Positions 25,846 through 52,120 of a stretch of DNA of 64,000 bases are shown piece after piece. The notes under the pieces are model-generated. The model was not told where the DNA came from. It did not search any database and worked only from the letters and a program-made list of their open reading frames with translations. The stretch lies in contig CAADGI010000005.1 in assembly GCA_900696495.1 (NCBI GenBank), positions 1 to 64,000 on the forward strand. The letters run 5' to 3'. Origin of the DNA: an uncultured Alphaproteobacteria bacterium (lineage in GTDB: Bacteria; Pseudomonadota; Alphaproteobacteria; Micavibrionales; Micavibrionaceae). The translations under genes and the position numbers were made by a program. The stretch's first letter is position 1. The number at the start of each line of letters is the position of its first letter.

Positions 25846-25918
25846 GTCATTGCGAGGAGCGAACGCGACGAAGCAATCCATTTTTTAAACTGGATCGCTT
25901 CGCTGCGCTCGCGATGAC
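25846..25918 (+). repeat. GTCATTGCGAG-family palindromic element
   Basis: GTCATTGCGAGGAGCGAACG at the left and CGCTGCGCTCGCGATGAC at the right, with CGAAGCAATCCA / TGGATCGCTTCG inner arms and a short T/A loop. It lies between the two lysine-rich genes. Confidence 0.87.
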
Positions 25919-46327: not shown

Positions 46328-47188
46328 ATGAGTGACGAGCTTTATGTATGGTGGGCTTATTTTCAGGACGCCTTTATGGCGTACCTTGTCGACGCCGAGG
46401 ATTTCGCCCTGGGCCTCGTCGTCGCCGGCATCATATGCCTGTTTGTAGAACGCATCCGTCCCGCCGAAAAAAATACACAATATTTCAAGAAGGATTTCAG
46501 GAAGGAACTCGGCCTGGCGGTATTGAACGCGCTGGCCGTTCTCCCCCTTCTCACATTCCTGATTTCGATTTCGATTATCGAGCTGCTGAAAAATTACGTT
46601 CCGTACCAGATGTTCGACGAAACGCTGAGACACCTGCCGCTTGCGCTGCAGATCCTGCTCGCGCTCCTGATCATGGATATGAGCACATACTGGCGTCACC
46701 GCTTCACGCATAATTATATGTGGCAGTATCACGCCTTCCACCATAGCGCCGAGGAAATCACCTGGCTGACGAGCCTGCGCCTGCACCCGGTGGATTACGC
46801 CGTCGCCCTGCTTTTTGACACGATGGTCCTTTATTTCCTCGGCTTCGGCGGGCAGGGCATCGCCGCGGCGATCGTGATCGCGCAAGTCTATAATTATTTC
46901 ACGCATGCGAATCTGAATGTGAAATTCAGAAAGCCCCTTTGCTACGTGCTCGCTTCGCCGCATTATCACCGCTGGCACCACGCCACTGATAAATCAGCCT
47001 ACGACAAGAATTTCTGCGGAATATTTTCATTTTTGGATGTAATCTTTGGCACGTATCATCATCCCGAGGAATTGCCGCAAGCCTACGGCCTTTCCCCCCG
47101 CGACCAGAAAGAAGTGCCCGCCGGATTATTCGCGCATATTCTGCACCCGATCAAAAAAGATTTGCGGAAAATTTTTCGGAAGAAATAA
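46328..47188 (+). CDS. Fatty acid hydroxylase / sterol desaturase superfamily protein
   Basis: A 286-residue membrane-bound di-iron oxygenase. Histidine clusters: HRFTH (about 122), HAFHH (about 136) and HYHRWHHATDK (about 217), on the cytosolic side between four or five membrane helices. Such enzymes hydroxylate or desaturate fatty acids, hopanoids or carotenoids with molecular oxygen. The substrate is unknown. It forms a likely pair with the upstream gene and converges on priA with a palindrome between them. Confidence 0.9.
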   Translation: MSDELYVWWAYFQDAFMAYLVDAEDFALGLVVAGIICLFVERIRPAEKNTQYFKKDFRKELGLAVLNALAVLPLLTFLISISIIELLKNYVPYQMFDETLRHLPLALQILLALLIMDMSTYWRHRFTHNYMWQYHAFHHSAEEITWLTSLRLHPVDYAVALLFDTMVLYFLGFGGQGIAAAIVIAQVYNYFTHANLNVKFRKPLCYVLASPHYHRWHHATDKSAYDKNFCGIFSFLDVIFGTYHHPEELPQAYGLSPRDQKEVPAGLFAHILHPIKKDLRKIFRKK

Positions 47189-47191
47189 CTC

Positions 47192-47266
47192 GTCATTGCG
47201 AGGAGCGTATGCGACGAAGCAATCCATCTTTTTAGAAATGGATTGCTTCGCTACGCTCACAATGAC
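47192..47266 (+). repeat. GTCATTGCGAG-family palindromic element
   Basis: GTCATTGCGAGGAGCGTATG at the left and CGCTACGCTCACAATGAC at the right, with inner arms AAGCAATCCAT / ATGGATTGCTT and a 9-base loop. It precisely fills the space between the convergent stops of the hydroxylase (47188) and priA (47269). Confidence 0.9.
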
Positions 47267-47268
47267 GG

Positions 47269-49911
47269 TTAGAAAAAGCTCTGCGGGTCGATGTCTACTT
47301 GAACGCGGACATTGCTCGGCAATTTAATTTTATCCAGCCACGCGCCGATCTGTTTCTGGATATTCACATCCTTATCGGCACGAACCAGCAACCTGAACCT
47401 GTATTTGCCGCGCAAACGCGCAAACGGTGCGGGCGCAGGCCCCAGCGTCTGAATCCCCTGATCCTGCGGCGCGGTGCGGCCAAGCTCTTTGGCGATATGC
47501 AGCGCTTCCGCCTCGTCGCGGCCCGAAACAATGATGCCGGCAAGGCGGCTGTAGGGCGGCATGTCGGCCAATTGACGTTCATGCGCCTCGACCTCAAGAA
47601 ATTTATCGCGCGCTTCATACGCCAGCGCCCGCATGATGTTATGCTCCGGCATGAAAGTCTGGAGATAGACCGTGCCTTTTTTCTCCTCACGGCCCGCGCG
47701 GCCCGCGACCTGGTGAAGCAACTGATAAGTGCGCTCGGCGGCGCGGAGTTCGCCGCCATTGAGGCCGAGATCGGCATCGATCACGCCGACGAGAGTGAGG
47801 TTCGGAAAATGGTGGCCCTTGGCGATGATCTGCGTGCCGACGATAATATCGACCTTTTTATCGCGGATATCTTTCAGCATCTCGCGGAGTTGCTCGTTAC
47901 TTTCGGCCGTGTCGCTGGCCAGCAGCATGGTCCGCGCGTCGGGGAAATAGGATTTGACCTCCTCGATGATGCGCTCGACGCCCGGCCCGCAGGCGGCGAA
48001 AGAATTTTCATCGTTGCATTCCGGGCAGTTCCTGGGCGGCTTCATATTGTAGCCGCAATGGTGGCATTGCAGCAGGCTGCCTTTCTTATGCTCGACCAGC
48101 CACGCCGTGCAGCGCGGGCAGTTCAACCGATGACCGCACGTACGGCAAAGCGTCAGCGGCGCGTAACCGCGGCGATTGAGAAACAGCAGAACCTGCTCGC
48201 CGTTCTGCACCGTCTCGGCAATGGCGTTTTTTAAAGTCGGTGAAATGAAATGCTGGCGCTCGGGCTTGTCCTCGCGCAGATCGATCAGGTGAATATCGGG
48301 CAGCCGCGCGCCGCCGAAACGGTCCGGCAGGTGCAAATGATCGTACCGCCCGCTCCAGGCATTGTGCACGGTTTCGAGCGAGGGCGTCGCGGAAACGAGA
48401 ATGACCGGAATTTTTCCAAGATGTGCACGCACCACCGCCATGTCGCGCGCGTTGTAAATAATCCCTTCCTCCTGCTTGAAGGCGGGATCATGCTCCTCGT
48501 CGACAATAATCAACCCGAGATCGTTATACGGCAGGAACAGCGCCGAACGCGCACCAACGATCACGCGCGTCTGCCCTTCCGCCACGCCGCGCCACGTGGC
48601 TTTGCGTTGACCCGGCGGCAGCGCCGAATGCCACAGCGCCGGCGCACAGCCGAAACGCGATTTGAACCGGTCAAGGAACGCGTTCGACAACGCAATCTCG
48701 GGCAAAAGAATAAGAACCTGCTTGTCCCGCCGCAGCGCCTCGGCCACCGCCTCGAAATAAACCTCGGTTTTTCCCGCACCGGTGACGCCGTCCAGCAGCG
48801 ACTCATTATAACCGCCCTGCTCCACAGCGGCTTTCAATCGATCGGCCACAGCCTGCTGATCGTCGGACAGAGAAGGCCCGTGACGGTCCGGATCGGGCGC
48901 GCGGCACGGCGCGGCGGAATAAACTTCCACCGCTTCCAGCAATCCTTTTTTCGCCATCGTCTTGACAACGGAAGAAGAACACCCGGCCATGTCGGCGATC
49001 TCGGCGGCGCGGCGCGGATGGCCGTCTGAAAGCAGTTCCAGGATTTTTCGCTGAACAGGCGGCAAACCACTTAATATTCCCTCTCCCCTCTGGAGAGAGG
49101 GTAAGGGTGAGGGGGCATTCAGATGCTCAAGAATATCTTGTAATACGCCTTGTGTATTATTAAGCACCTCATTATTTGAAAATCGAATAATCCTGTATCC
49201 ACGTTGCTCCAAATATTTTGTCCGCTCCGTGTCGTAGTGCTGATCATTTGCATGAGTTTCTCCATCCACCTCAACAACCAGCTTTTTTTCAAGGCACACA
49301 AAATCCAGAATGTAAGAAGAAACAGGATGCTGGCGCTTGAATTTAAAATTATTTAATTGACGGTCACGTAATTTATACCAAAGACGCTTCTCTCCCTCCG
49401 TCGCTTCATGGCGCATGGTACGGCTGTAATCAATTAATTCGGATGGAGGTTTTGTTTTGTAATCCCTCCCCCTCACCCCAACCCTCTCCCCGTCGGGGAG
49501 AGGGAGCTTTGTTTTATACGCCGTCACCGGTTTCGGTTTCTCAAGCGCGCCGGGAACGCTGAGCGACATTTTCAGAACCGAGCCCTTCGCGTTCATCGTA
49601 TAGGACGCCACCCAGTCGATGAATTTGCGCTGCGCTTCCGGCATCGGCGGCAGACCGTAAGAGGAAATCACGGCCTTGAGTTTTTCCGGCGCGACCGTTC
49701 CTTCCGCCTCGCCCCAGACCACACCCGGGATTTCCCGCTTGCCCAGCGGCACGCATACATAATCGCCATGCTGCGCTTCCAGCCCCGGCGGCAGGCTGTA
49801 GTCATACGCCTTGTCGACCGGGTACGGCACCAGCACGCGCCGGGCCGGGCCCGCCTGCGTCGAAGGCGGCAGCCCAAGGTCCAGCGTCGCGGGGACGGCC
49901 TTGTTTGACAT
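47269..49911 (-). CDS. priA: Primosomal protein N' (PriA helicase) carrying an inserted DUF559 domain
   Basis: An 880-residue DNA helicase for replication restart. The N-terminal DNA-binding domain spans about 1-130, Walker A is GVTGAGKTEVYFE (about 392), the DEEH box is IIVDEEHDPAFK (about 483), and zinc-binding cysteines lie in CRTCGHRLNCPRC and CHHCGYNMKPPRNCPEC (about 608-650). Normal PriA has about 730 residues; the excess is an in-frame segment (about 131-280) between KPVTAYKTK and LSGLPPVQRKILELL that encodes a DUF559 nuclease-like domain. The start is ATG 49911; the frame is open 18 codons further but lacks a ribosome site. Confidence 0.93.
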   Translation of the reverse strand: MSNKAVPATLDLGLPPSTQAGPARRVLVPYPVDKAYDYSLPPGLEAQHGDYVCVPLGKREIPGVVWGEAEGTVAPEKLKAVISSYGLPPMPEAQRKFIDWVASYTMNAKGSVLKMSLSVPGALEKPKPVTAYKTKLPLPDGERVGVRGRDYKTKPPSELIDYSRTMRHEATEGEKRLWYKLRDRQLNNFKFKRQHPVSSYILDFVCLEKKLVVEVDGETHANDQHYDTERTKYLEQRGYRIIRFSNNEVLNNTQGVLQDILEHLNAPSPLPSLQRGEGILSGLPPVQRKILELLSDGHPRRAAEIADMAGCSSSVVKTMAKKGLLEAVEVYSAAPCRAPDPDRHGPSLSDDQQAVADRLKAAVEQGGYNESLLDGVTGAGKTEVYFEAVAEALRRDKQVLILLPEIALSNAFLDRFKSRFGCAPALWHSALPPGQRKATWRGVAEGQTRVIVGARSALFLPYNDLGLIIVDEEHDPAFKQEEGIIYNARDMAVVRAHLGKIPVILVSATPSLETVHNAWSGRYDHLHLPDRFGGARLPDIHLIDLREDKPERQHFISPTLKNAIAETVQNGEQVLLFLNRRGYAPLTLCRTCGHRLNCPRCTAWLVEHKKGSLLQCHHCGYNMKPPRNCPECNDENSFAACGPGVERIIEEVKSYFPDARTMLLASDTAESNEQLREMLKDIRDKKVDIIVGTQIIAKGHHFPNLTLVGVIDADLGLNGGELRAAERTYQLLHQVAGRAGREEKKGTVYLQTFMPEHNIMRALAYEARDKFLEVEAHERQLADMPPYSRLAGIIVSGRDEAEALHIAKELGRTAPQDQGIQTLGPAPAPFARLRGKYRFRLLVRADKDVNIQKQIGAWLDKIKLPSNVRVQVDIDPQSFF
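49079..49505 (-). mobile_element. DUF559 nuclease-like insertion within priA
   Basis: The coding insert is bracketed by palindromic ends: left (plus strand) CCCTCTCCCCTCTGGAGAGA then GGGTAAGGGTGAGGGGG; right CCCCCTCACCCCAACCCTCT then CCCCGTCGGGGAGAGGGA. Each end is a hairpin, and the two ends are inverted copies. Between them lies a DUF559/VSR-like domain: ATEGEKRLWYKLRDRQLNNF, then FKRQHPVSSYILDFVCLE, then KKLVVEVDGETH. The Asp and Glu-x-Asp fit a PD-(D/E)XK site. The frame of priA is kept across both junctions. Boundaries are accurate to about 10 bases. Confidence 0.82.
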
Positions 49912-50014
49912 ATTAAAAACCCGTGTTATAGTGTGTCCCTCAATTATAAAAAGAAGGAAGGCCACCCGTCGAAAAATTCAGGGACTTTATCCCCGAATTA
50001 ATGGCCGAGAAACC

Positions 50015-50596
50015 ATGGGCTGGAAACAAAGAATTTCAGGATTTTTTGGCAAATTCGCCGCAAGCGCCCCGTCGGAACGCCCGGTGACAGGATTCCGCCA
50101 TGAACAGGTCTGTCACGACGTGCCGCTGAGCCAGTTGGCGGAAATTGTCAGGCCGGTAACGGGCCCCTCCAACGAGCGTGATGCGGTCGTTGAGGGATGG
50201 CAAAAACTGACCGATGCCGTAAATTATATGCTTACTCTTTCAAATATGAATCCCGAATATAAACACGTAACGGCCCATTTCTTTATTTTTCAGAGATGTA
50301 TTTCCGATGTGACGGAAAGAATAAAGAATGCTCCCGAAAAATGCGCTTCCGTTGCGTTGCCGGTCAGCCATATGGATTTTCTCTCAGAATATGCAGGCAA
50401 ATACCTGAAACAGGCATGCGACTGGCTTTCCCCTTATAAAATCGGCCCCGACGAATTGGCCGGAAACGTAAAACTTCTTCCCGCTGCCGTTTCTTTGAAC
50501 GGTCACGTTGAAACGCTCGAAAAACTCGTCACCTCATTTGAGAACAATTTGACCCTTGGCGTTGCGGCAGCTTCCCCCACGCCTGCGGCCTCTTGA
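50015..50596 (+). CDS. Unknown protein
   Basis: A 193-residue soluble, mainly helical protein (MGWKQRISGFFGKFAASAPS at the start). The C-terminal half (GHVETLEKLVTSFENNLTLG) looks like a helical bundle or coiled coil. No family recognised. The ATG 50015 is chosen within a longer open frame that runs antisense through priA. It precedes the aldolase gene by 54 bases. Confidence 0.62.
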   Translation: MGWKQRISGFFGKFAASAPSERPVTGFRHEQVCHDVPLSQLAEIVRPVTGPSNERDAVVEGWQKLTDAVNYMLTLSNMNPEYKHVTAHFFIFQRCISDVTERIKNAPEKCASVALPVSHMDFLSEYAGKYLKQACDWLSPYKIGPDELAGNVKLLPAAVSLNGHVETLEKLVTSFENNLTLGVAAASPTPAAS

Positions 50597-50650
50597 ATAC
50601 GCACGCCCTTATCCTGTAAGACTCCTCCATAACAACAACAGGGGCCAGCT

Positions 50651-51307
50651 ATGAAGTTTTTCGTCGATACCGCCGATATTAAAGAGATCCGCGATCTCGC
50701 CTCGACAGGGCTGCTGGACGGCGTCACAACCAACCCCTCGCTCATTGCCAAATCGGGCAAGCAGTTCATTCCCCTCATCGAGGAAATCTGTGAAGTCGTG
50801 AAAGGCCCGGTGAGCGCCGAAGTCGCCGCCACCGATTACCCGACCATGATCAAGGAGGGCAAAAAACTCGCCGCCATCGCCGACAACGTGGCGGTGAAAG
50901 TGCCGCTGACGCCGGACGGCCTCAAGGTCTGCAAGGAACTCACTGACGCCGGAACAATGGTAAACGTTACGTTGTGTTTCTCTCCCGCGCAGGCGATTCT
51001 CGCCGCCAAGGCGGGCGCGACATATATCTCGCCCTTCGTCGGGCGCCTTGACGATATCGGCGAGGACGGCCTTAGCCTCATCCAGGACATTGTCACCATC
51101 TACAGCAATTACGATGACTTCGACACGCAGGTCCTCGTCGCCTCGGTCCGCAATCCGGTTCATATTATCGAATCGGCCAAGATGGGGGCCCATGTCGCCA
51201 CCTGCCCGCCGGATACCATCCGCATGCTCTATAAGCACCCGCTGACCGACAAGGGCCTGGCGGCATTCGTCGAAGACTGGAAGAAAACGGGGCAATCGAT
51301 TCTGTAG
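50651..51307 (+). CDS. Fructose-6-phosphate aldolase / transaldolase-like enzyme
   Basis: A 218-residue TIM-barrel enzyme of the short transaldolase subfamily. Starts [16 protein letters not shown]; the Schiff-base Lys lies in [11 protein letters not shown] (about residue 86), with [14 protein letters not shown] (about 24) and [12 protein letters not shown] (about 125) around the active site. Members are either fructose-6-phosphate aldolases or true transaldolases; the sequence alone does not settle which, though many alphaproteobacterial versions serve as transaldolase in the pentose phosphate pathway. Confidence 0.92.
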
Positions 51308-51388
51308 ATCGCTCCTACAGTTTTGTTGACATAAAGAGATTCCCTGCCTAAAAGGGAAAAAAAGAATTTATAATCGGGGAGAGTTACC

Positions 51389-52120
51389 ATGCGAAAAGTT
51401 GGGATAACCACATCAGACAATACGTACGAAGAGCCCAGACAAGCCTCTGGAAAAGTAGAGAAGCTTCGCGGATGGGGACAGGATACATACGTTCTGGCCA
51501 GCGTTTTCAAGGATCAGAGCGATTCCCCCACAAAACATGTCACGGAACTCAGCCTCTATGATAAATGCGGCCTCGTGGCTCATTTCCAAAACGGCCAATG
51601 GGATGATAATCAGCCGCCGCAAAACGACGCCCATATAGCTGTCATCGCCTCCGTTCTCGGCGACGATCACGATTTGAATATATTTACGGTCGGCTCTTCT
51701 ATGTCGAACTTCCGGGGAAAGGAAGGAAGGTTTGAAAGAGGAACTATTAAGAAGAATGGCGCCGAGTACGCGACTTATGAAGCCAGAACTTATGATAAGG
51801 GACTTTCGGCCGCACGCATTCCCCACGGAGGGCCTCCATCGCCGGGAGGAGCTTCTCCAAAAAAACCAAAAACCGATGATTTGAAATCCACTCTTGATCT
51901 GACGACTGCCCTCAAGAACACATGGATTTTTGATCTCAAGCTCCAGGACGTAAAAGGAAATACCATTCTTGAATTGACAAACGGGCAATGGGTTAAAGGA
52001 AATCCGGAAGCGGATGAATTGAAAGAGATCGTGAAAATGTTCTCTGACAGGTTCGCGGCTCCAAAACCAGTCACGCCGGCTGCGCCTCCCCAACTATTCC
52101 TGATGTCCGAGATTAAATGA
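51389..52120 (+). CDS. Unknown protein with an internal NGQW repeat
   Basis: A 243-residue soluble protein. Two segments resemble each other: TELSLYDKCGLVAHFQNGQW (about 51-70) and WIFDLKLQDVKGNTILELTN with GQW (about 174-196), each followed by an acidic helix. A Pro/Gly/Lys linker separates them (about 146-165). GGGGAGAG precedes the ATG. Its stop overlaps the start of the next gene (ATGA), so they are translationally coupled. No family recognised. Confidence 0.68.
   Translation: MRKVGITTSDNTYEEPRQASGKVEKLRGWGQDTYVLASVFKDQSDSPTKHVTELSLYDKCGLVAHFQNGQWDDNQPPQNDAHIAVIASVLGDDHDLNIFTVGSSMSNFRGKEGRFERGTIKKNGAEYATYEARTYDKGLSAARIPHGGPPSPGGASPKKPKTDDLKSTLDLTTALKNTWIFDLKLQDVKGNTILELTNGQWVKGNPEADELKEIVKMFSDRFAAPKPVTPAAPPQLFLMSEIK

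Follow-up and report, generated by a model that had tools for sequence, protein, structure and literature searches.

Raised by this locus is the question of how a nuclease domain comes to sit in the middle of the helicase PriA, in frame and bounded by DNA hairpins. Our answer is that the insert is probably one member of a widespread class: small mobile elements built as hairpin, inward tail, DUF559, tail, hairpin, and spread by the DUF559 nuclease that they encode.

Anatomy of the insert in priA

The window (the whole 64-kb stretch of DNA that was analysed) contains a priA gene on the minus strand at 47269..49911, defined by its open reading frame and Pfam domains, which starts with an ATG at 49911 and encodes 880 amino acids. 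It is the only full PriA match in its genome (G000). The protein has the Pfam domains 3'BD, DEAD, Helicase_C, Zn-ribbon and PriA_C, plus a DUF559 domain with an E-value of 5.7e-40, and the frame stays open across all 880 residues, insert included. The original prediction, made from the letters of the window, was that a DUF559 nuclease domain had been inserted in frame into PriA, and this is what we find; its estimate of about 150 surplus residues comes near to the net gain of ~423 nt (141 codons) relative to two congeners, G001 and G002.

The whole inserted element occupies 428 bp (49078..49505, minus strand), and has 38-nt inverted repeats at both limits. A repeat search aligns 49078-49115 with 49468-49505 at 84% complementarity, such that the bounding palindromes are inverted copies of each other, as had been proposed. 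Reading in the sense of priA, the 5' hairpin (CCCTCTCCCCGTCGGGGAGAGGG, 49482..49504) is followed by a tail (49468..49481, CCCCCTCACCCCAA on the plus strand), the PD-(D/E)XK nuclease domain of the Vsr/EDxHD-like type (49120..49434, minus strand; PriA residues ~157-265), a second tail (49102..49115, TAAGGGTGAGGGGG on the plus strand), and the 3' hairpin (CCCTCTCCCCTCTGGAGAGAGGG, 49079..49101). At both ends the hairpin is outermost, and a CCCTCACCC tail points toward the inside (GGGTGAGGG-type). The exact stem-loop pattern appears once in the 64-kb window; 100 shuffles give no instance of it. As single-stranded DNA, the 5' hairpin folds stably (z -2.5), and the 3' hairpin less so (z -1.1).

The insert lies in the linker that joins the 3'BD to the winged helix. 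The suggestion of a permissive loop thus holds with respect to the location, but not as a clean interruption: the native linker, 24 nt long in G001, has been partly replaced in the genome of the window instead of being split. In an AlphaFold2 model DUF559 is well folded, and the two stretches with pLDDT <50, residues 137-152 and 270-277, are the hairpin-encoded peptides. We expect this PriA to be a single functional protein of 880 residues, with the 3'BD on one side of a tethered DUF559 and the winged helix on the other.

Is this an intein? The label "intein-like" fits the tolerance of the host for the insert and nothing else, as a splicing domain is absent; an intein is rejected because Pfam finds no Hint domain anywhere in the protein. 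An intron is rejected as well, because there is no Rfam match to a group I or group II intron in 47000-51500.

Directly 3' of priA, at 47192-47270, lies a palindromic repeat of a second family (GTCATTGCGAGGAGC...GCAATCC...), with another copy at 25846-25879. In another genome of the family (G073), a peptide resembling the translation of this second repeat (SLRAQRSNLEMDCRVADAPRND) is found in the same PriA linker.

The nuclease domain

The domain matches PF04480 with 141 bits (E = 1.9e-41), where the curated cut-off is 20.6. The catalytic-type residues D44, E55 and D57 (domain numbering) are invariant in the DUF559 alignment. The homing endonuclease I-Bth0305I is related both by sequence (E = 0.003) and by fold (E = 3.6e-5), and the model of the domain also matches the fold of Vsr. 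The Caulobacter DUF559 protein VsrA is needed for an SOS/DNA-damage response in vivo (PMC12907096). Because of the relationship to I-Bth0305I and the VsrA-dependent DNA-damage response, cutting by DUF559 is plausible. A role as an anti-phage defence gene was rejected, the PADLOC match being weak (E = 0.03).

For both halves of PriA dN/dS is 0.03-0.09. For DUF559 it is 0.06-0.14 in four of the five measurable pairs; the fifth gives 0.5, at a very small distance. Judged by these ratios, the DUF559 family and the gene that it interrupts are both under purifying selection.

Empty sites in close relatives

The PriA proteins of the congeners G001 and G002 are 94-95% identical to the one in the window, and they lack the insert. 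PriA is matched in 101 of 104 sampled genomes of the family, and 10 of these matches contain DUF559; in two of the ten (G029 and G051) a contig end leaves a single side visible. We also read the PriA linkers of 60 other family genomes. Within genera the insert is sporadic (1/3, 1/11, 1/7 and 2/5 genomes). An alignment with related PriA proteins, which had been suggested as a check, therefore finds the insert missing from two congeners and from ~90 of the ~100 PriA proteins in the family. DUF559 as an ancestral PriA domain is ruled out by its absence from the congeners and from most of the family; far from being residues common to all PriA proteins, the insert is absent in congeners and has palindromic ends.

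The same comparison can be made at other loci. The fliQ-fliR site is empty in G001 and G002 and holds an element in the genome of the window, and rpsP-rimM shows the reverse pattern, with the element in G001 and G002. Alignments at fliQ-fliR and at coaBC (below) are forced across non-homologous stretches, and we use only their end parts. The pnp-GDPD site of G000 is unusable as an empty-site comparison, since its upstream neighbour differs in G001 and G002. At the sites that we compared, where the species have diverged and the linker is replaced, we see no target-site duplication. In Azospirillum plasmids the element is at one site in all records that cover the locus, and no empty allele was found among them. 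The three DUF559 copies in the genome of the window are only distantly alike, and thus give no indication that the element was copied recently within it. The pattern of presence and absence leads us to infer that the element is mobile.

A class of hairpin-bracketed elements

Searching the genome for further copies, as had also been suggested, yields three DUF559 genes in all, each of them flanked by hairpin ends. In the family, most of 46 DUF559 copies have hairpin ends. For the 44 copies that are readable, a stem of at least 8 is found upstream in 40, downstream in 34, and on both sides in 32, compared to 12 of 248 control windows at the same loci. Some copies lack one or both hairpins. Across bacteria, stems of at least 8 bracket 58 of 80 DUF559 loci, compared to 13 of 292 single control windows. 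Because these loci are the query's nearest relatives, DUF559 genes in general could show a different rate. These relatives span Proteobacteria, Gastranaerophilales, Chloroflexi, Nitrospirales, Candidatus Binatia, Daviesbacteria, Dadabacteria and others. XRE genes, used as a control for the flanks, have hairpins on both sides in 0 of 19 copies outside CoaBC.

DUF559 elements are often intergenic. The original proposal of a compact nuclease element living in PriA is thus supported, but it missed the scale: a class that crosses phyla, is often found between genes, and has solo-hairpin relatives. In E. coli, the DUF559 gene ycjD (L282, 1307-1500) has a CCCTCACCCCAACCCTCTCCC-type repeat immediately 3' of it. 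The gene is found in ~3,300 of 5,426 complete E. coli genomes; two genomes that lack it have an unrelated efflux cluster in the region, and are uninformative on the exact boundaries.

Hairpins without the nuclease also occur. In the genome of the window, solo in-frame hairpins lie in MutS (L011), Mfd (L013), PgeF (L008), PdhB (L007) and AnmK (L005), in each case near locus position 1500. The one in Mfd is missing from both G001 and G002, and the one in MutS from G002. The hairpins can also bracket something else: in the linker of CoaBC, two CCCTC-type hairpins with inward tails enclose an in-frame HTH_3/XRE domain (HTH_3, 1.3e-15; L009 ~1480-1820, which is G000:C10:20518-20820) that is absent in G001 and G002. 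That HTH cargo is a recurrent element was rejected, this being the only case in the family.

Ends matched to the enzyme

Do the hairpins belong to the nuclease, or did the nuclease find them already in place? REP-like palindromes could spread by other means, with the DUF559 gene later invading inverted pairs of them. Solo hairpins at many loci, some of them in genes, are what one would expect in that case; the PriA linker of one family member (G016) carries a hairpin-like peptide and no DUF559, and DUF559 itself resembles a homing endonuclease. The two ends of an element, however, match each other far above what shuffles give, which random neighbours would not. In 15 of 72 copies the loops of the two sides are identical once one is inverted, where shuffling gives a mean of 1.0 and at most 5, and the stem type is the same on the left and the right in 64 of 70. 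The tails, moreover, point inward almost always (inward at 122 of 173 hairpin-bearing ends, with the reverse tail at 7). We consider homing into pre-existing hairpins unlikely.

The ends also track the enzyme between copies and between genomes. Stem types cluster on the DUF559 tree, with 22 changes compared to 31.9 when shuffled, and with none of 200 shuffles as low. The exact hairpin is found in 31 of 37 genomes with DUF559 and in 12 of 67 that lack DUF559 (p = 4.6e-11, uncorrected for the kinship of the genomes), and the mean number of hairpin copies is 9.6 in the former and 0.7 in the latter, a ratio of ~14. In one genus (g28) the hairpin is present in all 3 genomes with a strong DUF559 match, and in none of the 7 without one.

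Alternatively, DUF559 could be a mere cargo of hairpin elements whose movement depends on a RAYT or some other transposase. RAYT enzymes commonly drive REPs (PMC3733652, PMC3116915), and the HTH domain in CoaBC is bracketed by the same ends. We regard this as very unlikely, as the hairpin load follows the presence of DUF559, the tail differs from both GTAG and CGTC, and no Y1 transposase was found in the genus of the window, where the elements nevertheless differ between species. RAYT as the mobiliser in that genus is rejected on the absence of PF01797 (Y1_Tnp) from G000, G001 and G002, which makes it an unlikely driver there.

Host genes

PriA is occupied at two different linkers, in at least two phyla. 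Site 1, between the 3'BD and the winged helix, is seen from both sides in G000, G004, G046, G057, G059, G067 and G072, and its 3' hairpin is eroded in G046 and G072. Site 2, just ahead of the Walker A motif, is likewise seen from both sides in G030, in L236 (Gastranaerophilales), and in L204. The PriA copies of G029 (site 1) and G030 (site 2) are a sister pair with support 99/85, and because they group together, the unit has changed place within PriA inside one genus. For the PriA copies overall the tree requires 6 changes, a weakly supported number; the well-supported branches force at least 2.

Other in-frame hosts seen from both sides are TrpF (G018) and ValS (L170). For HsdM (L231) and HsdS (L177), one side is assigned by Pfam and the other by reading, and for Mfd (G108) and IleS (G074) one side only is seen. 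DUF559 is also fused N-terminally to RimM, SufS, SufD and MurA in the family, and to MeaB, a deiminase and CbiC outside of it, although for some of these translation could instead restart at the host gene. In G001 and G002 (L057 and L059, ~1800-1900), the start codon of rimM has been replaced by the element (by its right hairpin in G001), and RimM could there be either a DUF559 fusion or restarted at a GTG, which in G001 follows a GGGAG. Many copies recur at particular loci (rimM, sufS), a pattern that vertical descent would explain as well.

Could the nuclease have been recruited to PriA and Mfd by selection, as a domain fusion for repair or replication restart? PriA has been struck repeatedly, and the catalytic-type residues are invariant. 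But the insert is sporadic within genera, and the same unit is found in TrpF, ValS, RimM and MurA, which have no common function; we find this explanation highly improbable. An assembly or annotation artefact can be dismissed: palindromes and repeats can mislead assembly, and some copies elsewhere are at contig ends, but the priA frame is open throughout and PriA copies exist in many independent genomes, including that of G057, which is a single contig.

How the element could spread and persist

At the level of sequence, the element has inverted-repeat ends, it is present or absent between sister species, and its architecture recurs in different genes and phyla; DUF559 as the driver of its mobility is what we infer. 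In the mechanism that we propose, the DUF559 nuclease would cut DNA at or near its cognate hairpin, its tail, or the target, and repair would then copy the unit into the break, as in homing or in the RAYT-driven dissemination of REPs. The solo hairpins would be non-autonomous derivatives of the unit. Counting against this mechanism are the twelve genomes that have hairpins and no DUF559, the DUF559 copies that lack one or both hairpins, and the hairpin pair in CoaBC with its HTH.

Five of the six frames are open through the repeat unit, whose peptides are flexible and rich in Pro and Gly. Because the hairpins are read through as flexible peptides, units can survive inside genes at interdomain linkers, and the host protein would be made as one unspliced polypeptide with an extra folded nuclease domain.

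The element is best read as REPtron-like, with a Vsr/homing-type nuclease in the place of the RAYT transposase. A more general proposition would be that palindromic mobile elements found across phyla are mobilised by DUF559 enzymes of the Vsr/EDxHD type, are retained in essential genes by translation between linkers that they encode themselves and with no splicing, and have ends that also accommodate different cargo, as with the HTH in CoaBC, thus providing a route to inserted domains. To this we give about equal chances of being right or wrong.

Relation to known systems

In REPtrons and REPINs (PMC2817692, PMC3116915, PMC3733652), as here, short tailed palindromes are inverted around a small nuclease gene, solo units are dispersed, and the type of hairpin follows the clade of the enzyme. 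The enzyme there is an HUH tyrosine transposase, and here it is DUF559, with a PD-(D/E)XK fold; the REPtron tail is GTAG, and here it is CCCTCACCC. Inteins share the in-frame entry into essential genes with a homing-type nuclease, but the DUF559 unit has no Hint domain and no hint of excision, and its limits are DNA hairpins. EDxHD homing endonucleases such as I-Bth0305I share the catalytic fold and a sequence relationship, but the DUF559 unit has neither intron nor intein, and it is found in variable linkers and not at conserved sites.

Vsr-like DUF559 proteins such as Caulobacter VsrA and E. coli YcjD belong to the same domain family, and YcjD has its repeat 3'. VsrA is described as a mismatch-repair-like enzyme, with no mention of hairpins in the accessible part of that report (PMC12907096). 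Our results suggest that DUF559, named as a repair-type nuclease, may instead be a mobility enzyme. It would be a candidate enzyme for the common CCCTC..GAGGG family of bacterial hairpins, for which none is described in the open-licence literature that we searched. Nor did we find there any description of the association between DUF559 and palindromes, which may have been described earlier elsewhere. Whole domains appear to enter essential proteins repeatedly, without splicing, and at interdomain linkers; the evolution of domain insertion could therefore be watched in sister species.

Finally, Rickettsia palindromic elements and CGTC REPs (PMC3733652) are likewise in-frame palindromes in core genes, notably those of replication and repair. 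Those lengthen a protein by ~20-30 residues and are not known to have an enzyme of their own, whereas here a whole nuclease domain is added; the CGTC end tag is absent at the hairpin ends of the priA element.

In the Rickettsiales genome AM-377-L16 (L165), we also observe an open frame of 1,460 amino acids in which repeated hairpin-type peptides surround a DUF559 domain.
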